Shown here: in pieces, positions 2,376-11,913 of the stretch | Layout of the letters: each line of letters starts with the position of its first letter | Position numbering within the stretch: the first letter of the stretch is position 1 | Notes under the pieces: generated by a model | The model's database searches: none | Seen by the model: only the letters and a program-made list of their open reading frames with translations | What the model was told of the DNA's origin: nothing | Program-made: the position numbers and the translations under genes | From: Pseudanabaena frigida | GTDB taxonomy: Bacteria; Cyanobacteriota; Cyanobacteriia; Pseudanabaenales; Pseudanabaenaceae | DNA: 64,000 nucleotides | Assembly: GCA_003242085.1 (NCBI GenBank) | Contig: QBML01000002.1 | Location: forward strand, 62,001 to 126,000 | Direction: 5' to 3'

Positions 2376-2498
2376 AGGTTATGTTGCTGAAATAGCACTC
2401 TTTTCGGTGCTATTACTAAAGTGCAATTACTGGTGATTTGTATAGAATGGAACAAGGGGCTTAAGCCCCTTGTCTCTGTCTCACAGAATCAGGAATGC

Positions 2499-2762
<264 letters not shown>

Positions 2763-2822
2763 TTAGATTATTTTTAATTGGTTTACATGTATAGGAAGTA
2801 AACTTCCCAGAATCAACTGAGC

Positions 2823-3596
2823 TTAATGCTCATGGCCTTCATCACCATGTCCTTCCATCGCCTCACCAATGTATGACGCTGCCAAGGTCGAAAAAATCAA
2901 TGCTTGGATGGCACTGGTAAATAGTCCCAGAATCATCAATGGCAGAGGTACAAACAAAGGTACGAGGAGAACCATGACCCCCACAACTAGCTCATCCGCG
3001 AGGATGTTTCCGAAAAGACGGAAGCTTAGCGAAAGGGGCTTTGTGAAATCTTCAAGAACCCATAAAGGAAGGAGAAAGGGAGAGGCTTGGATATATCTAG
3101 TGAAGTATTCCAAACCGCGCTTGCTCAATCCAGCATAGAAATAGGCTAAGGAGACTAATAATGCTAGGGCGATCGTGGTATTGATGTCACTTGTCGGGGC
3201 AGCAAGTTCGCCCTCTGGCAATTCGATCAATTTCCAAGGAACTAGCGCTCCTAACCAGTTCGATACGAAGATAAACAAGAATAGACTACCAACAAATGGT
3301 ACCCATTCTCTGTAGTGCTTTTCGCCAATCTGGTCTTTAGCGATGCCCTGAACGTATTCCAGAGCATATTCCATGAAATTTTGAAACCCTGCGGGAACCC
3401 TTTGGTCAGCTTTAGCGGTGCTAGATCCGATAAGCGCAGCAACGAGTACTGCTCCCATGACAATCCAGCTCACGATTAAAACTTGACCATGTACCGCTAG
3501 ATTACCGAACTGCCAATAAAAGTGCTTGCCCACTTCTAGTGCGGCAATACTGGTTTGGTGACTAATTGAATAGCCAAAAGATACTGGATCGATCAT
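2823..3596 (-). CDS. atpB: ATP synthase F0 subunit a
   Basis: Subunit a (257 aa), the membrane stator that forms the two proton half-channels against the c ring. Several hydrophobic helices are visible. The conserved helix with the essential arginine is in the segment [20 protein letters not shown], where the Arg precedes LFGNILADE. The C-terminal tail is His-rich (GHGDEGHEH). The gene follows atp1 and precedes atpE, as in other cyanobacteria. It is named atpB by operon convention (also called atpI in chloroplasts). Confidence 0.96.
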
Positions 3597-3651
3597 GTTC
3601 GATATGTTACAACCTGTAGAAGGTCAAATCAGTAAGAATGGAACCCATCAC

Positions 3652-4074
3652 TCAAGCTTTGCTCAAATCTTGAGCAACAATCACTAAAACAGCGACTTTA
3701 TAGGTCATAAAGCCGAGGAATGCAGGCAAAACTTCTAGTTGATCGGATTTAGCGGCGATCGCAATCAGAAGCACGAATAGTCCAAGTCGAGAGAAACCGA
3801 GACGGCTAGACTTTGTGCCCAATTGGTCTACGCTCTTGGTCAGCATTCTGAAATAAACAGAGCCAACTAGTGCCCCTAAAGCATAGCTGAGAGCTATTTT
3901 CCATCCGTACGACAACCAGACCGCTAAGCCAATAAAGACTCCAGAGGCAAGGGTTAGTACTAACAGCTTAAATTTGAGTCGGTTGTACTCTTCCATGCCA
4001 TCATCAACTGATGTGGACGAAGATTCTACAATCGTCTGGGGCGCTGCACTGCTTTTTGCGGGAATAATCTTCAC
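3652..4074 (-). CDS. atp1: ATP synthase operon protein Atp1 (UncI-like)
   Basis: A 140-aa membrane protein encoded first in the atp operon, 55 bp before subunit a. Four hydrophobic segments can be seen from about residue 33 onward (LKFKLLVLTLASGVFIGLAV, then IALSYALGALVGSVYF, and two more), after a polar N-terminus. Position, size and topology match the cyanobacterial Atp1/UncI family, which helps assemble the c ring or load cations in other bacteria. It is not a catalytic subunit. The operon promoter should lie in the 350 bp upstream. Confidence 0.85.
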   Translation of the reverse strand: MKIIPAKSSAAPQTIVESSSTSVDDGMEEYNRLKFKLLVLTLASGVFIGLAVWLSYGWKIALSYALGALVGSVYFRMLTKSVDQLGTKSSRLGFSRLGLFVLLIAIAAKSDQLEVLPAFLGFMTYKVAVLVIVAQDLSKA

Positions 4075-4421
4075 TGTTGATTTTTAGCGAGAATTGCTGA
4101 TTATTTGAGTGAAGAACAAGTACTTGAGATAGTACTGAAAATGGGTGTCCAAAAACTTGGATGTAGCTGCCTACACCGTTGCTAAGCATATCACGCAAGA
4201 TGTCACATTTGCTTTACAAGTCTCAGACAAATAAGTACTGAAAGCATCTAACTAGCCTCCGATACTTTCTAGCAGAAACTTTTTATAGGTATTTCGTCTA
4301 TGGTGGAGTGTTAACATAACAAAAAGTTTTAGAGCAATGCTTAAACTTTTTTTAAAGTTAAAAAAGCTAAGCATTCTTCCAAAATTCATTATTTTTTGTG
4401 AGCATCCAGAATTTGCAACCT
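4075..4421. other. Divergent intergenic region before the atp operon
   Basis: About 350 bp separate the start of atp1 (minus strand) from the next gene (plus strand). The stretch must hold promoters in both directions. It is AT-rich near 4310-4395. I see no convincing gene, hairpin or tRNA in it, and no single promoter I can place with confidence. Confidence 0.5.
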
Positions 4422-5030
4422 ATGTCCACATCTTTCGCTAAGCCTCGCCCGTTTCAGATTGCTTTGCAAGCCGCAGTCTTGTCTCTTATCTCCTCTGCTG
4501 CTTTACTGCCGCTAGGGGCGATCGCGCAAAATGCTTCAACCCAGAAGCCTCAATCTCAGCCCACTCCCCAAGCTCAGCCTATTGAGCCTACTAAGCCAAA
4601 TTCTCTTGAGAGTAGCGTGTTTAGTATTTCAGGTGGTCAGCGATTGATGTCGGAGTCAATGGCAGCAATTAGTCAGCAGAATTACGATCAAGCTGTAACT
4701 AAGTTGCAAGATGCCCGCCAAGTTTTTAACCAGTTATCAAATTTTTATCAAGAGTTGACGACGAGCTTTGCAGGAATTGACAATCGCATTTCTGATAGTC
4801 ATCGTCGTAAGGCTTTGCAAACAGCGCAGTTGCGTGACGAGGCTACTTATCAACTTGCAGTTGTCTATCGAGCCAAAAACCAACCTGAATTAGCTGTGCC
4901 TTTGTTAATCCAGTTGATTCGTAGTCAAGCGCCAACTCGCGATTTGGGCTCACAAGCTTATCAGCAGTTGTTTGAGCTAGGTTTTGTGGATGCACAGTTT
5001 GTGCGCCCTAATGCTTCTGCTCCGAAGTAA
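4422..5030 (+). CDS. Exported helical-repeat protein, function unknown
   Basis: A 202-aa protein with a signal-peptide-like start (QIALQAAVLSLISSAALLPL, then AIAQ). A Gln/Pro-rich linker follows, then an all-helical region from about residue 65 to the end (for example SQQNYDQAVTKLQDARQVF and QPELAVPLLIQLIRSQ) that looks like TPR-type pairs of helices. A GTG codon at 4398 would add eight residues; I prefer the ATG at 4422 because it places a basic stretch directly before the hydrophobic core. It is probably periplasmic or lumenal. I do not recognise a named family, and no partner gene is visible. Confidence 0.75.
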   Translation: MSTSFAKPRPFQIALQAAVLSLISSAALLPLGAIAQNASTQKPQSQPTPQAQPIEPTKPNSLESSVFSISGGQRLMSESMAAISQQNYDQAVTKLQDARQVFNQLSNFYQELTTSFAGIDNRISDSHRRKALQTAQLRDEATYQLAVVYRAKNQPELAVPLLIQLIRSQAPTRDLGSQAYQQLFELGFVDAQFVRPNASAPK

Positions 5031-5046
5031 TTTCTGGACTAATCCC

Positions 5047-5124
5047 AAAAGAGTGTTAGTGGCGTAGAGCGACGCTAACACTCTTTTGCTATAAAAAATC
5101 TCGCTAAGCAAGGATTTTTTATAG
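5047..5124. terminator. Two adjacent hairpins between convergent genes
   Basis: The first hairpin pairs AAAAGAGTGTTAG with CTAACACTCTTTT (5047-5087, with a bulge). The second pairs CTATAAAAAATC (5089-5100) with GATTTTTTATAG (5113-5124) and overlaps the last codons of the subtilase-like gene. They sit between convergent genes and probably act as a bidirectional terminator. Confidence 0.7.
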
Positions 5125-6804
5125 TGATTTTGCCCACCAAGCAAGTCCATAGCGCTGACTTGGCGAACTTACTTGTGGCGATTTAAAGACAACTCTAAGT
5201 TTATATTTTCCAGTAGCAGGAATTTTCATAAAAATATGCTGCAGGTTATCAATTTGACTAATAGACGACCAAACGCTTTGAGAAATGTCAGTATCTTGCG
5301 ATCGCATTAAATAAAGCTCAATCCTATTAAACCCTTCATCAGTAAAGCTTTCGCCAATATCAAATAATCCATTACCATTTTTGTCATTTAGTTTGACTTG
5401 ACGATCCCAAGTTAAGGTAGCAGAGATAAAGCTATCGGCTTCGAGAGGATTAGCAAAAATATAGTCTTGATACTTATCGACTTCAACAATATTTGTATCC
5501 CAACCGATCGCTTTGACAGTTGCTGAAATATTACCAGTGCCGTTAACTGGAGATTGTTGTCCTCCTTTGTATTGCAGAAAAGCACGATAGGCATTGAGTT
5601 GTCCTGCACCCAGATTGATGCTGAGGGGAATTGAGCGATTGGCATAGGCTTCGGTATCGATCCAAGTCTTACCGAAAGCATCAAGAATAGTTTTGGACAT
5701 GCCAAGGATTTTGCCATCACCAGCATCTTGGATTTTATCGGCAGAATTAATTAGGACGGCTTTGATGGCTTCATGGCGACGCGCATCAATACTCCATTCT
5801 CCCGATTCGATCTGACGATTGGCATATTCATGCAATAAGGCGATCGTGCCAACAACATGGGGAGCTGCAAAACTAGAACCATTGGCATTTTTGAACTTAC
5901 TTTGTAGGGTAGGTAGCTTGAGATTATTTCCAGGGGCTAGCAAGGCAAGCGATCGCCTGCCATCGACTGGACTTTCTACGCCTGCCGTCCATTTGCCATC
6001 TTTATTGAGATCGCTAAAGACTTCACCTCGATCGTATTTGCCATTATTGTTGCGATCGATAAATGGCTCATCGATGAGGTTGCCGCGATCGAGTTGGCGG
6101 TATATGCCATCGACTTCACGAGTAAATCCAACTGTAAACCCGTTATAAAGATCTGTGGGAATTGGTATTCCGCCTTTGCCTTGGTTACCCGCAACAATAG
6201 GTAATGTGTTGTAGGTAGTGGCAATCCAATCGACACAAAGTGTGAGTAATGCATCGCCATCAAGCTTGGCATTGGGGCGAGGATCTTCGCTGAGGAGTTC
6301 GCCAAAGCTAAAATTAATGGCACGTACCGTACCGTTATATTGTCGAGCAATATGTTGTGAAGCAATACATGCCTCTGGCTGCCCATCTTGGCGGCGTTGA
6401 GAATAGGCGGATGAGAGTAGTTTGGCATTTGGAGCGATGCCACGCCGAATTTTATCTTGACTGATAATCACTGCTGCTACTTGGGCAGAGTGATCGTCTA
6501 AATTTTTATTGGGGATAGCTTGGCGATCGCGAAAAAAAACTTCATAGGGTTGGACGATCGCGCGATCGATTTGTAAAAGCTTGTTAGAAATTTTATCTAC
6601 GGCGAAGCGGCTAGGACGACTCAGCTCGACTTGCCCGATGAAAACATCTTTACCTGTCAGGTTGTAGGGAGGTTTTTGTAAGGTGCGTGCATCTATGCCT
6701 TGGCGATCGGCTGACTTTTCTAATGCCCAACCTGTGGGGCTAGTAGCCATACCTGTAGAAATACTGAGCAAAATCCAACCGACAAACCACCCTAACCTTC
6801 TCAT
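5119..6804 (-). CDS. Exported subtilase-fold (S8) protein with calcium-loop inserts
   Basis: A 561-aa protein with a signal peptide (MRRLGWFVGWILLSISTGMA) and a peptidase S8 fold. The catalytic His lies in DDHSAQVAAVI (about H105), the oxyanion Asn in PIVAGNQG (about N207) and the nucleophile Ser in NGSSFAAPHV (about S311). The strand that normally carries the catalytic Asp reads VFIGQVELSRP, with Glu where Asp is expected. Between Asn and Ser there are Asp/Asn-rich loops (DRNNNGKYDRGE and DLNKDGKW) like EF-hand or dockerin calcium sites; a third (DKNGNGLFDIGE) is in the C-terminal beta domain. An upstream ATG at 6846 adds 14 residues but would bury the signal peptide. It may be an active protease with a variant triad or an inactive homologue. 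Confidence 0.85.
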   Translation of the reverse strand: MRRLGWFVGWILLSISTGMATSPTGWALEKSADRQGIDARTLQKPPYNLTGKDVFIGQVELSRPSRFAVDKISNKLLQIDRAIVQPYEVFFRDRQAIPNKNLDDHSAQVAAVIISQDKIRRGIAPNAKLLSSAYSQRRQDGQPEACIASQHIARQYNGTVRAINFSFGELLSEDPRPNAKLDGDALLTLCVDWIATTYNTLPIVAGNQGKGGIPIPTDLYNGFTVGFTREVDGIYRQLDRGNLIDEPFIDRNNNGKYDRGEVFSDLNKDGKWTAGVESPVDGRRSLALLAPGNNLKLPTLQSKFKNANGSSFAAPHVVGTIALLHEYANRQIESGEWSIDARRHEAIKAVLINSADKIQDAGDGKILGMSKTILDAFGKTWIDTEAYANRSIPLSINLGAGQLNAYRAFLQYKGGQQSPVNGTGNISATVKAIGWDTNIVEVDKYQDYIFANPLEADSFISATLTWDRQVKLNDKNGNGLFDIGESFTDEGFNRIELYLMRSQDTDISQSVWSSISQIDNLQHIFMKIPATGKYKLRVVFKSPQVSSPSQRYGLAWWAKSL

Positions 6805-7028
6805 TTTTATTTCCGTTTTTTGTCTATAGGACTTTGCACCGCACATTTACTAGGATAATCAAAAAATTCTAAACTTTTTACAATTTGACTCATGCGTTTC
6901 CAGTCAATTTGTCAAGATTAGGAAAAAACTCTCGCTTATCCAATTGCATAACTTAAGTATTTGACACCTCGCAATAGTCAGTAACTAAGTATCCATACCA
7001 CAAATAAATCGTCAAGCCGAGAAAAATA

Positions 7029-7138
7029 TTAGAGAACTGACAATTCTACTTTTTTCTTGTCAAGCAGAATTTGGAGGCGATCGCCTAGTTCATAGGCAAA
7101 TTTAAAGAGTATGAGATTGTTGAGTTGCTGAATCCTCA
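7029..7138 (-). pseudogene. Truncated remnant of a small helical-protein gene
   Basis: Reading the minus strand in one frame gives a peptide beginning RIQQLNNLILFKFAYELGD and continuing to a stop at 7029. It matches the middle of the decayed gene at 8994-9234 (RIQQINHLTLFKLTDELGD). The DNA from 7073 to 7135 matches 9126-9188 at 55 of 63 positions. The start and the normal C-terminus are missing here, so this is a fragment. The two copies bracket the ATPase/DUF4276 gene pair. The rest of the 6805-7207 gap shows no other gene. Confidence 0.7.
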
Positions 7139-7207
7139 AAATAAGCTGAACGAGATACACTTAGAAACATCCCCATCCCGCACAAAGAATCTGGCTGACT
7201 ACTTGTT

Positions 7208-8392
7208 ATGAGTAAATTTGAAAGAATATCTATTAAAGGGTTTCGCCGACTGCAACAAGTCGATCTAAAAATGCGAGATCTTGTAGTGATGATTGGTGCA
7301 AATGGCTCAGGTAAGACATCCTTTTTAGATGCTATGTCAATGTTAGCGGCTTCAGCAAGTGGGAAGTTACATGAGTCATTACAAAGCAAAGGTGGGTTAA
7401 ATGAAATTTTGACTAGGGGGCGATCGGAAAAACTGCAAATAGGAATATTGGCAAAGGCATTAGATCAAGAAGATCTAACATACAGTCTAGCTATAGCTCC
7501 TAAAGGTTTAGCCTATGAAATCAGGCTAGAACATTTAACTAAACAACCAATTTCTGCAACTGAGAAAGTTAGTCATCTTTTCCCAATGATTGGAGACAAT
7601 CTTATTTCCAAAAGATACATTGAGTCTTATGGTTTAGGCATTAAATATTTTCGAGAAGATGATGCTATTTTAAGTCCTAATTGGGAATATAACTATCTGG
7701 AAACTTCTCTTTCTCAAGTTCCTAAAATGTATCAAGAACCTGAGAACTTGCGAAAAAGTCTTGCTTCTTGTACTTATTATGGAGCGCTTGATGTTTCAGG
7801 GACAAGCCCAATTCGTCTACCTCAAGCAATGCGACCAGCGAAATTACCAGGGGTAAGAGGTGAGGATTTGGTTTCTTGTCTCTACGATTTGCGAGAAAGC
7901 GATCGCGATCGCTTTGAAATGGTTGAGAGCATTATTTCTGCTGCATTTCCAGATTTTGAGCGTTTAAATTTTCCTCCAGTTGCTGCGGGAACTATTTCTA
8001 TGACTTGGAAAGATAGAAATTTTTCGCAGCCTATATATGTACATGAGCTATCAGAGGGAACGCTGCGATTCCTTTGGTTGGTAGCACTGTTGCAAAGCCA
8101 AAGTTTGTCAACAATTACACTCTTAGATGAACCTGAAGTTAGTTTACATCCAGAACTTTTAAGACATTTAGTTTACTTAATGCGCGAGGCTTCTAAGCAT
8201 ACGCAGTTAATCGTAGCGACTCACTCAGATCGCCTTATCCGATTTCTTGCTCCCCATGAGGTTCTGATTTGCGATATCGAAGAGGGAGAAGCTAAAATGA
8301 CATGGGCTGATACGCTCGATTTGGATAAATGGTTAGAGGACTACAGCCTCGATCAACTTTGGGCTATGAATGTAATGGGTGGTCGTCCATGA
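7208..8392 (+). CDS. AAA-family ATPase of an OLD/ABC-like two-gene system
   Basis: A 394-aa P-loop ATPase of the RecF/SMC/ABC type (AAA_21-like). Walker A is MIGANGSGKTSFLDAMS (about residues 29-45). Walker B is TITLLDEPEVSLHPELLRHL, followed by the His switch region LIVATHSDRLIRF. An ABC-type signature (YVHELSEGTLRFLWL) precedes Walker B. The C-terminus ends in a WAMNVMGGRP-like tail commonly seen before a DUF4276 partner. Its stop overlaps the ATG of the next gene (ATGA), so the two are translationally coupled. Such ATPase/TOPRIM-type pairs resemble the OLD, RloAB and PARIS defence modules; a role in phage defence is inference from architecture and neighbourhood. Confidence 0.9.
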   Translation: MSKFERISIKGFRRLQQVDLKMRDLVVMIGANGSGKTSFLDAMSMLAASASGKLHESLQSKGGLNEILTRGRSEKLQIGILAKALDQEDLTYSLAIAPKGLAYEIRLEHLTKQPISATEKVSHLFPMIGDNLISKRYIESYGLGIKYFREDDAILSPNWEYNYLETSLSQVPKMYQEPENLRKSLASCTYYGALDVSGTSPIRLPQAMRPAKLPGVRGEDLVSCLYDLRESDRDRFEMVESIISAAFPDFERLNFPPVAAGTISMTWKDRNFSQPIYVHELSEGTLRFLWLVALLQSQSLSTITLLDEPEVSLHPELLRHLVYLMREASKHTQLIVATHSDRLIRFLAPHEVLICDIEEGEAKMTWADTLDLDKWLEDYSLDQLWAMNVMGGRP

Positions 8393-8997
8393 AAATTGCA
8401 ATTTTAGTTGAAGGGGCTACTGAATCAGCTTTTAAAGAGAAGTTACATGAGTTTCTAAAACAATATCTAGCGCAAAATATGCCGAGATTAAAATTTATCC
8501 CGCAGGATGGGAGAATTCCAAAGGAAGATAAGTTAAAGCGGATTGTGGAAAATTTATTGAGTGGAAAGGATGCCTATGATGCTGTAATTGCTTTGACGGA
8601 TGTATATACGGGGTCAAGAGATTTTGTAGATGCGGCGGATGCTAAAGCAAAAATGACTGCATGGGTTGGCAACAATCCGAAGTTCTATCCACATACTGCT
8701 TGTCACGATTTTGAGGCATGGTTACTTCCCTATTGGGCAACAATCCAAAAGATCGCTAAACATAACCGTTCTGTACCCAGTGGCGCACCAGAGAAGGTAA
8801 ATCACAATAAACCGCCTTCTTACTGGATCAAGGAGATTTTTAAATTTGGGGATTGCAAAAGAGACTATAGCAAGATTATTGATGGCAAAGCTATTCTCAA
8901 AAATCAAGATCTGATGATTGCGATTCAAGCCTGCCCAGAGCTAAAGGCTTTTGTAAATCGAATTATTGTTTTGTGTGGTGGTGAGGAAATTACCTAA
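8389..8997 (+). CDS. DUF4276 family protein (TOPRIM-like partner of the ATPase)
   Basis: A 202-aa protein starting at the ATG at 8389 that overlaps the ATPase stop codon by four bases; a longer reading from 8329 would lie inside the ATPase gene and is unlikely. The start MKIAILVEGATESAFKEKL carries the EG-x-TE motif of DUF4276/OLD-type TOPRIM domains. ALTDVYTG is a likely second acidic site, and CHDFEAWLLPYW is a strongly conserved DUF4276 feature. In related two-gene systems the TOPRIM-like protein is the nuclease effector released or activated by the ATPase. Activity is not shown by the sequence, but the family and pairing are clear. Confidence 0.85.
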   Translation: MKIAILVEGATESAFKEKLHEFLKQYLAQNMPRLKFIPQDGRIPKEDKLKRIVENLLSGKDAYDAVIALTDVYTGSRDFVDAADAKAKMTAWVGNNPKFYPHTACHDFEAWLLPYWATIQKIAKHNRSVPSGAPEKVNHNKPPSYWIKEIFKFGDCKRDYSKIIDGKAILKNQDLMIAIQACPELKAFVNRIIVLCGGEEIT

Positions 8998-9234
8998 GAG
9001 CTATAAAATTTGGAGGCGATCGCCCCATTAACACAACTAAAAATCTCGTCTAATTCAGCGATCGCTTCTAGCTCAATATTTTCTGTAGCCGTAAGTGCAT
9101 CTGCTTTTTCTTGCGAGCAGGGTTTGGATGCGATCGCCTAGTTCATCGGTAAGTTTAAAGAGTGTGAGATGGTTGATTTGCTGGATCCGCATTCCTTTGG
9201 GGAGAAGGGATGATAGTTTTAGCAATGTATTCAT
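8994..9234 (-). pseudogene. Frameshifted small helical-protein gene
   Basis: From an ATG whose complement is at 9232-9234 the minus strand reads MNTLLKLSSLLPKGMRIQQI and on to DELGDRIQTLL, then runs into a stop. Shifting the frame by one base near 9115-9120 restores a coherent continuation (QEKADALTATENIELEAIAE, then LDEIFSCVNGAIAS) to a stop at 8994. The interval is 241 bases, one more than 80 codons, which fits a single-base insertion. The product resembles small cyanobacterial helical proteins of the kind encoded beside HNH nucleases, like the gene at 10586. Its tail overlaps the end of the DUF4276 gene by four bases on the opposite strand. Confidence 0.7.
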
Positions 9235-9363
9235 GGCGTTTTTTACAAGGTTGCTATTTAGATTTTAACTTTCTTCTTTCTGTGCGGGTAAGCAAATATT
9301 TCAGAGATTTATTTTGTTTGCTTGTATTATTGTTTAGTTATTTTTTCCATTAAAAGCCTAGAA

Positions 9364-10497
9364 ATGACAGTACATTTACCTGAAATTGGAATTACCAATT
9401 GCCGTAGAGCTAAAACATTACTCGAAGAATACCCTCAAAATATCGTTGGTAGTTTTTGGATAATGAGTGGCTATGGATTTGATAAAAAAGAAATTCCTAG
9501 CTGGTGGATTGACAATCATTTTGAAGACAATCAAGCACAATCAATTATCGATGGTTATGAAACAGGTCTTTTTGATGGTGAACATAACAACCCTTTGTAT
9601 TTAGGGTTTTGTATTATTGTTGTTGCGGCTCCAGACAATCCTGCTAGTCTTTCTTATGTAATCCAACATTTAAGAATGTGGGAAGGTGAAGGTATAGGAC
9701 TATTAAGAATAATGGCAAATTATAATATTCCTGCAATCACAGAAGTTATTTATCCTGAAAGTTTTTTAAAATACCGTTATGGTTATGCTGGCGAACGTAA
9801 TACTTATCGAAATTTACGTGTATCTCTAGATCACTGGTCAGTACAAATTTGGGAAGATTATTGTAGTTACCAAATGTCTAATCGTGGACAGCAGATATTT
9901 TATGAATATTGCAAACGAATCAATGTAATCAAAGATGAAGTACAAGCTACTGTTGAAAAAGGTTCTAAAGCCTTAGTTTTGACAGAAGGTGAAACAGATC
10001 CAATTTATATCAGAACAGCATTGGCTCTATTGGGAAAAACAAAAATTTTAGATCTAGTTGATATCGAGTGGGTCGGGGCTTCTGTAGGTCAGGGGAAAAG
10101 TATAAATACTGGAGACAGTGGTTTAAACAATACAAGAGATGTTCTCCTTTCTAATCCCAAATTTTTAACTAGAAAAGTGTTGCTTTTATATGACTGTGAT
10201 ACAAAAAAGCAAAGTGCTGATTATGACAATCTAAAAATTAGATCTATCCCTCGACAGGAAAATAGAAAGATCAAAAAAGGGATTGAAAATTTATTTCCTG
10301 ATCATTTATTTACTAAAGAGTTTTATACACCAAAAACTAAAATAGGTGATTATGGAGAAGTAAATCAAATTCAAGAATTTCAAAAAATGAGGTTCTGCAC
10401 ATGGATGTGTTCTCAGAAAAAGGATGCTAAAGATTTTGCGGACTTTAAGGTGATTGTCGATATTCTCAACGATTTTTTAAATGAATCATTGGAATAG
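9364..10497 (+). CDS. TOPRIM-like protein with novel N-terminal domain
   Basis: A 377-aa protein; I chose the ATG at 9364 over a TTG at 9322. The N-terminal half (about residues 1-200) is rich in Trp and Tyr (GSFWIMSGYGF, WSVQIWEDYC) and matches no family I recognise. The C-terminal half has TOPRIM hallmarks: a first strand with acidic residues (KALVLTEGETDPIYIRTAL) and a DxD strand (KVLLLYDCDTKK). It then continues RQENRKIKKGIENLFPDHL, as in OLD-type nucleases that have lost their ATPase domain. Codon use and AT content are slightly higher than in neighbouring housekeeping genes. It follows the ATPase/DUF4276 pair by about 360 bp, so it is a plausible stand-alone defence or DNA-processing protein. 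Confidence 0.7.
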   Translation: MTVHLPEIGITNCRRAKTLLEEYPQNIVGSFWIMSGYGFDKKEIPSWWIDNHFEDNQAQSIIDGYETGLFDGEHNNPLYLGFCIIVVAAPDNPASLSYVIQHLRMWEGEGIGLLRIMANYNIPAITEVIYPESFLKYRYGYAGERNTYRNLRVSLDHWSVQIWEDYCSYQMSNRGQQIFYEYCKRINVIKDEVQATVEKGSKALVLTEGETDPIYIRTALALLGKTKILDLVDIEWVGASVGQGKSINTGDSGLNNTRDVLLSNPKFLTRKVLLLYDCDTKKQSADYDNLKIRSIPRQENRKIKKGIENLFPDHLFTKEFYTPKTKIGDYGEVNQIQEFQKMRFCTWMCSQKKDAKDFADFKVIVDILNDFLNESLE

Positions 10498-10585
10498 TTA
10501 ATACGAAAAATAGCGACAAGTATTTTGTCTTGCTATAATTCTGACTAAGAATATGTAATCCACAACCTTGTAAAGGTCACTACAC

Positions 10586-10996
10586 ATGGCTACAGTTCAG
10601 TTTAAATCAGAGATCAGCATTGAACTCGATCAACTACTCACTGGAGTAGCCCAGCTAGACACACCTGATTTAGAGAAATTACTTATTCAAGTTCGACAAG
10701 TACTTGCCCATCGCCAAAATCCTAGTCTTCCTGCACTAGAACTAGAACTACTGCAAAAAATCAATCAAGCTATACCAGAAGAAATACAACAGAAATACAA
10801 CGATCTAAGCGCAAAAATGCGATCTCAAACTATCACTCCTGAAGAACATCAAGACTTACTTAAGCTGATTGATATTGTTGAGAAAGCTGATTGCGATCGC
10901 TTACAGCATCTTATCCAGTTATCGCAGTTACGGAATATTTCGTTAGCCGAATTGATGAAGCAACTACAGATTCATCCCCAACCCGTCCATGTCTAG
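10586..10996 (+). CDS. Small helical protein overlapping an HNH nuclease gene
   Basis: A 136-aa all-helical protein (FKSEISIELDQLLTGVAQLD at the start, then SQTITPEEHQDLLKLIDIVE and RLQHLIQLSQLRNISLAELM). Its stop overlaps the start of the HNH gene by eight bases, so the two are made together. Similar pairs of a helical protein and an HNH nuclease recur in cyanobacterial genomes from memory. The short protein could be an antitoxin-like or targeting partner, but no function is established here. A -10-like TATAAT sits at about 10535. Confidence 0.75.
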   Translation: MATVQFKSEISIELDQLLTGVAQLDTPDLEKLLIQVRQVLAHRQNPSLPALELELLQKINQAIPEEIQQKYNDLSAKMRSQTITPEEHQDLLKLIDIVEKADCDRLQHLIQLSQLRNISLAELMKQLQIHPQPVHV

Positions 10997-11417
10997 GCGA
11001 TACATCACAGCTACAGAAGAGAGTCAAATTATAGAAAGATCTAACCGACTTTGTGAATATTGTCGATGTTCTATGGACTACTCTGCACAGTCATTTGTCA
11101 TCGATCATATTGTGCCAATCGCTGAAGGCGGAACAACAACAATGGACAACTTAGCTTTTTCCTGTGGTGGATGTAACGGTCATAAATACACAAAAACTCA
11201 AGCCACAGATCCCGTTAGCCGCGAATTAGTGCCCATTTACAATCCCAGAACTCAAAAGTGGCTAGACAACTTTGTTTGGAGTGATGATCTCCTGCAAGTA
11301 GTTGGTTTAACAGCGATTGGTAGAGCCACTATAAACGCCTTACAAATGAATCGTTCTGGAGTGGTCAATATGAGAAAATTGCTACTTATGGCAGGACTAC
11401 ATCCTCCTAACTACTAA
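10989..11417 (+). CDS. HNH endonuclease
   Basis: A 142-aa HNH nuclease. The zinc-binding pair CEYC (about residues 23-26) and CGGC (about 57-60) flank the core FVIDHIVPIAEGGTTTMDNL, with the catalytic His in DHIVP. GHKYTKTQATDP continues the motif. The C-terminal part (FVWSDDLLQVVGLTAIGRAT) is typical of the cyanobacterial single-domain HNH family. It overlaps the preceding helical-protein gene. Possible roles include a nicking or defence nuclease or a toxin-like partner; the sequence alone does not decide. Confidence 0.9.
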   Translation: MSRRYITATEESQIIERSNRLCEYCRCSMDYSAQSFVIDHIVPIAEGGTTTMDNLAFSCGGCNGHKYTKTQATDPVSRELVPIYNPRTQKWLDNFVWSDDLLQVVGLTAIGRATINALQMNRSGVVNMRKLLLMAGLHPPNY

Positions 11418-11430
11418 TTATCTTCAGAAT

Positions 11431-11913
11431 TTACAAGAGATTGAAGAATGCTGAATCTATCTCATAGCCTAAGCTTTGGGTCATTTGCTGTAACTTTGCC
11501 GTGCTGTCAATGCCGCGTGACTTGAGCCATAGCGAAATGGTGAATACCTTCTGCATTACAAAAAGCTCCAATGCTTCAGGATTGTATTGCAACACATAGC
11601 CATCACCTTCGCGCTTAAACTCGTGGGGAACTAGCATCGCCGCATAGCGACTGAGTTCTGCACGCCAATCGAGGAGATAGCTAAACCAAGGATAGGTCGC
11701 ATCAAGACGAACAAACCAGAGACGCACTTCCGAGATTTCTGATAATTCGCGAGGATCGCCATCTTCCTTATCCCAGACAAGTTCGATTTGAAATTGGCGA
11801 TCACCTTCGGGAGTTTCATCCCAATTCGCTAATAACTTCTCGATCGCAATCTTAGCGGGAGTGATATCGAGTGATTCAATACAGGCTTGGTTGATATAGA
11901 TAACGGTAGACAT
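11431..11913 (-). CDS. CRR6 family NdhI maturation factor
   Basis: A 160-aa protein of the DUF1817/CRR6 family. The diagnostic central block reads DPRELSEISEVRLWFVRLDA, followed by YPWFSYLLDWRAELSRYAAM and YNPEALELFVMQKVF. CRR6 helps assemble the NdhI iron-sulfur subunit of photosynthetic NDH-1, which carries cyclic electron flow in the thylakoid membrane; it acts in the cytoplasm. It lies downstream of the DnaJ-like gene on the same strand, but a hairpin at 11937-11969 separates them. Identification rests on recalled family motifs. Confidence 0.8.
   Translation of the reverse strand: MSTVIYINQACIESLDITPAKIAIEKLLANWDETPEGDRQFQIELVWDKEDGDPRELSEISEVRLWFVRLDATYPWFSYLLDWRAELSRYAAMLVPHEFKREGDGYVLQYNPEALELFVMQKVFTISLWLKSRGIDSTAKLQQMTQSLGYEIDSAFFNLL

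Follow-up and report, generated by a model that had tools for sequence, protein, structure and literature searches.

A TOPRIM gene with a lineage-restricted N-terminal domain in Pseudanabaena frigida, possibly encoding a solitary abortive-infection-type effector

Results

The window, a 64,000-nucleotide stretch of Pseudanabaena frigida DNA, contains an open reading frame that starts with ATG and encodes a protein of 377 amino acid residues (Table 1). The frame is not a chance ORF: the probability that 377 codons stay open at its own base composition was about 2e-13, and this value, together with intact homologues showing 67–90% identity, indicates that it is a real gene. Full-length homologues were found in the sister species Phormidium tenue FACHB-1050 (L012; 90% identity) and in another member of the genus (L080); those from Anabaena, Dolichospermum, and Cylindrospermum showed 67–72% identity. 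The source genome carries a single copy. Full-length genes occurred in 3 of the 26 genomes of the genus and in about 9 of the 218 genomes of the Nostocales family, and truncated or broken copies were present besides. Among the decayed members, D212 was replaced by V in L019 (6001–7152) and L029 (928–2082), L020 and L031 were truncated, and L071 was broken. The GC content of the gene was 33%, compared with 42% for the window. The N-terminal domain and the TOPRIM module are both under purifying selection, with dN/dS values of 0.17–0.53 in the N-terminal half and 0.08–0.32 in the C-terminal half; in the Nostocales pairs, the values were higher in the N-terminal half (0.36–0.53) than in the C-terminal half (0.18–0.32).

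Table 1. Features of the TOPRIM gene and of the neighboring repeat-bounded cassette
Feature	Position in the window	Strand	Basis or remark
Whole gene, N-terminal domain fused to a TOPRIM nuclease module, 377 aa	9364..10497	+	ORF, homologues
N-terminal domain, residues 1–~185	9364..9918	+	Without known family; predicted alpha/beta, low confidence
TOPRIM module, residues ~186–377	9919..10494	+	Profile matches, alignment, structure match
Motif LTEGETD, residues 206–212 (E208, G209, D212)	9979..9999	+	E208/D212 aligned with Eco2 E374/D378
Motif LLYDCDT, residues 274–280 (D277, D279; DxD)	10183..10203	+	Aligned with Eco2 D460/D462
Motif GIENL (G306, E308)	10279..10293	+	Aligned with Eco2 S513/E515; Ser to Gly here
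Invariant K341 toward the C terminus, candidate for the catalytic lysine	10384..10386	+	Alignment; role inferred
Direct repeat on the left flank of the ATPase/DUF4276 cassette (neighbor, outside the TOPRIM unit)	7052..7138	.	Repeat comparison
Direct repeat on the right flank of the ATPase/DUF4276 cassette (neighbor)	9105..9191	.	Repeat comparison

The preliminary description of this DNA had recognized TOPRIM hallmarks in the second half of the protein, and profile and structure comparisons bore this out. The TOPRIM-side part matched the PADLOC model RT-Toprim_I-C (E 3.9e-9), and the NCBIfam retron Ec67 model was matched with an E-value of 1.2e-7 but a score of 30 bits, whereas the model's cut-off is 450. 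The nearest TOPRIM sequences, with 29–45% identity, belonged to solitary OLD-like AAA+TOPRIM proteins (L008, L010, and L052–L055). By tblastn, solitary proteins of 601–633 amino acid residues annotated as AAA family ATPase and having the same TOPRIM end were detected on plasmids of Leptolyngbya, Acinetobacter, and Acetobacter; further AAA+TOPRIM proteins were found in two cyanobacterial genomes and one viral contig. In an alignment with the first five of these proteins, E208, G209, D212, D277, D279, G306, E308, and K341 were invariant, and the residue set of OLD-family TOPRIM domains (E, G, D, DxD, E) is present in the C-terminal half.

In the retron protein Eco2, E374, D378, D460, D462, S513, and E515 are reported as active-site residues whose changes to alanine abolish defence (PMC12405507). 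In sequence alignments, they fall on E208, D212, D277, D279, G306, and E308, respectively; the acidic residues align with the Eco2 active site in sequence, and the TOPRIM fold matches overall. The equivalent Eco2 residues are required for defence and RNase activity, and K562 has been named as the catalytic lysine (PMC12405507). The Eco2 residue opposite K341 in the alignment is a lysine that precedes K562 (546 in chain numbering); K341 is a candidate for this role.

The AlphaFold model of the full protein had a mean pLDDT of 57, with values mostly of 65–88 over residues 200–230 and 290–370. The best structure found with VIA-align was the retron Eco2/Ec67 RT-Toprim (Z 9.2, 165–176 residues aligned, rmsd 4.2–4.5), followed by class 2 OLD Toprims (Z 7.0–7.3) and then PARIS (Z 6.0). 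A Z-score below 8 by itself could reflect a common arrangement; however, the top rows were all TOPRIM nucleases and agreed with the sequence matches. The sequence comparisons and the model together indicate that the C-terminal half is a TOPRIM module.

Searches of Pfam, NCBIfam, PADLOC, PHROGs, and the PDB sequences gave nothing convincing for residues 1–~185, in line with the earlier remark that the first 200 residues had not been assignable to a family. The weak PDB sequence matches, complement C3 and leucyl-tRNA synthetase, were taken as chance. A motif search detected no P-loop (Walker A) in the 377-residue protein, and no AAA profile of Pfam, PADLOC, or NCBIfam matched it; the ATPase that the closest relatives carry in front of TOPRIM is missing here, as had been noted from the sequence. 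The predicted structure of the N-terminal half was weak (pLDDT 55, pTM 0.57) and suggests alternating strands and helices; it was computed from the window protein and related-locus proteins, with the standalone N domains left out. Foldseek searches with the full model and with the N-terminal domain alone gave nothing below an E-value of 0.001, and the best values for the low-confidence model of the N-terminal half were E 0.24 (Foldseek) and Z 4.6 (VIA). The weak rows, among them Ycf2-FtsHi and dihydrodipicolinate reductase, were likewise regarded as chance.

Profile searches with the N-terminal domain yielded a small family found only in cyanobacteria, the sole phylum sampled in depth, and no relatives were found in the phage, plasmid, and viral-contig collections searched. 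In Pseudanabaena and Nostocales, the domain and TOPRIM form one fusion protein; the domain also occurs in standalone proteins of about 173 residues (P0004, 174 aa; P0009, 172 aa, from the genus of the window) and in a separate protein of 133 aa (P0005). L069 and L070 contain separate N-domain genes, both frameshifted. At these Nostocaceae loci (L069, 5523–8187; L070, 6400–9159), an FtsK-like ATPase gene, a PD-(D/E)XK gene, and the N-domain homologue stand in a row, the PD-(D/E)XK match of the middle gene being weak (E 0.0056). The standalone forms start with a TOPRIM-like 'IFLPEG'. The idea that the N-terminal domain is a degenerate TOPRIM was rejected: when its profile was compared with that of the TOPRIM alignment, the probability was 0.1%.

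DNA identity between the window and L080 was 70–79% over residues ~4–200 and 89–99% over residues ~250–375, and that between the window and L012 was 81–97% along the whole gene. When only codons whose amino acid is identical in the window, L012, and L080 were counted, 40 of 111 in the N-terminal half and 28 of 160 in the C-terminal half differed synonymously between the window and L080 (Fisher p 6e-4), and the window–L012 comparison showed no contrast of that kind between the two halves. The identity step and the synonymous contrast toward L080 indicate that the front part, including the start of TOPRIM, was exchanged in one lineage. By these comparisons, the N-terminal half was replaced in one Pseudanabaena lineage and the TOPRIM end was retained. 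This replacement, the fusion to TOPRIM, the purifying selection, and the standalone forms together indicate that the N-terminal domain is a real, lineage-restricted domain.

Upstream of the gene, two direct repeats of 87 nucleotides each (82% identical) enclose a pair consisting of an AAA_21-type ATPase gene (7208–8392), about 1 kb from the TOPRIM gene, and a DUF4276 gene (8389–8997), which overlap by four bases. In PADLOC, the products matched HEC-01A (E 6.7e-70) and HEC-01B (E 2.2e-15), respectively, and the segment from 7052 to 9191, which occupies a variable slot, is a candidate cassette for defence. A single repeat copy was present in L012, where the pair is absent beside the 90%-identical TOPRIM gene; there was one copy in L079 and two in L080. 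Between the L080 repeats lie a relative of this ATPase, another ATPase of the AAA_15 type, and a gene for a HigB-like toxin; in this slot (2437–5065), the toxin has a possible HTH partner. The differing contents in L012 and L080 indicate that the repeats bound a cargo slot that is not tied to the TOPRIM gene. At the Nostocales loci read, such an ATPase gene never adjoined the TOPRIM gene; the sole one, in L019, was separated from it by 4.4 kb and by intervening genes.

In the lineages whose neighborhoods were read, the TOPRIM gene was solitary, in agreement with the stand-alone arrangement proposed earlier. Its position in genomes of the genus is a variable slot, downstream of which follows a conserved small-gene/HNH pair, whose 136-residue and HNH proteins are kept in L081 and L082, two loci without the TOPRIM gene. 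This downstream pair (10586–11417 in the window), in which the HNH protein has a single domain, stays together in related genomes, and the HNH protein had 6 matches with an E-value of 1e-20 or better in the source genome. In Nostocales, several orthologues lie at a common chromosomal site next to coaBC, a site that is not itself a defence island, and some copies adjoin a weakly matched PIN-like/Phd-like pair.

Discussion

The protein resembles three groups of known effectors. With the type I-C retron Eco2 (Ec67), it shares a C-terminal TOPRIM that is the best structural match, an effector fused behind another domain, and the metal-site residues except Ser513, which is Gly here. Eco2, however, has a reverse transcriptase in the place of the ~185-residue N-terminal domain of this protein of 377 residues in all, and no msr-msd RNA was detected by Rfam up to an E-value of 0.1 in positions 6800–11500, some retron RNAs being without a model. 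The class 1-like AAA+TOPRIM OLD-like proteins have the closest TOPRIM sequences and are likewise encoded by solitary genes, of which three are plasmid-borne, but their front part is an ABC/AAA-type ATPase of about 400 residues, whereas the domain here is shorter, unrelated, and without a P-loop. PARIS AriA/AriB, proposed as class 4 OLD, also has a TOPRIM polypeptide without a fused ATPase; in contrast, the TOPRIM gene here has neither a conserved neighboring ATPase gene nor an AriB profile match in PADLOC. Since the defining ATPase and reverse transcriptase were looked for and were missing, the protein is most likely one that works like Eco2 or OLD effectors and is a member of neither the OLD proteins nor the type I-C retrons.

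We give about an even chance to the explanation that the gene encodes a solitary abortive-infection-type effector with a regulatory N-terminal domain in place of the ATPase or reverse transcriptase. The patchy distribution, the low GC content, the exchange of the N-terminal half, and the variable slot support its reading as a horizontally moving effector. Points that weigh against it are the missing phage link, with no hit for the N-terminal domain in phage or viral-contig collections, the coaBC site common to several Nostocales orthologues, the Gly at the position of Eco2 Ser513, and the loss of D212 in L019 and L029. The C-terminal TOPRIM would be a two-metal nuclease of the OLD or retron Eco2 kind, and its substrate would probably be RNA by analogy with Eco2. 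The Eco2 Toprim alone is a toxic RNase, and the fusion is not toxic (PMC12405507). In the present protein, the free TOPRIM module would be harmful to the host; the N-terminal domain, sitting where the OLD ATPase or the retron reverse transcriptase would be, would keep the nuclease inactive and release it on sensing an infection-related signal. We infer this sensor role only from the position, the exchange, and the faster evolution of the domain. A further, tentative suggestion is that the domain may be a new cyanobacterial sensor/inhibitor module common to nuclease systems, being fused to TOPRIM here and encoded separately after the FtsK-like ATPase and the weakly matched PD-(D/E)XK protein in Nostocaceae, and that its lineage-specific versions may have been swapped by recombination to alter what is sensed.

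An unlikely alternative, yet the strongest of those considered, is that the protein is a DNA-cutting OLD-type effector whose N-terminal domain recognizes DNA or a DNA-bound protein. The closest sequences are AAA+TOPRIM OLD-like proteins, and class 2 OLD proteins cut DNA (PMC10568477), but the best structural match is Eco2, the Toprim of which is reported as an RNase, and the TOPRIM tree, a small one with poorly supported deep branches, placed the family of the gene in one group in just 60% of bootstrap trees. The module may be derived from either an OLD-like or an Eco2-like protein. It is improbable that the gene encodes a cellular nuclease of these cyanobacteria, acting in repair or RNA processing with no defence role: the common position beside coaBC in several Nostocales would fit such a function, but the gene occurs in few genomes, is frequently truncated or frameshifted, is low in GC, and had its N-terminal half exchanged. 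Very improbable is a class-4-like (PARIS-type) TOPRIM effector supplied with an ATPase in trans, either by the pair at 7208, as the preliminary description had raised, or by an unlinked gene. The match to PARIS and the nearby AAA_21 gene with its relative in L080 speak for it. On the other side, the pair forms a separate repeat-bounded cassette that includes a DUF4276 partner for the ATPase, does not occur next to the TOPRIM gene in L012 or at the Nostocales loci read, and was rejected as the ATPase source on the grounds of neighborhood and direct repeats; PADLOC gave no match for AriB.

The PADLOC and NCBIfam matches are weak and cover the TOPRIM part only, so that annotation relying on an ATPase or reverse transcriptase partner would miss this gene. 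The natural variants of the N-terminal domain on a near-constant TOPRIM end would make the trigger role of the front domain directly testable. TOPRIM effectors of the OLD/Eco2 type are already known to be controlled by an ATPase, either fused or separately encoded, or by a reverse transcriptase fused to them; if the proposed explanation is true, the regulatory N-terminal domain would be a further control mode, contained within one 1.1-kb gene.
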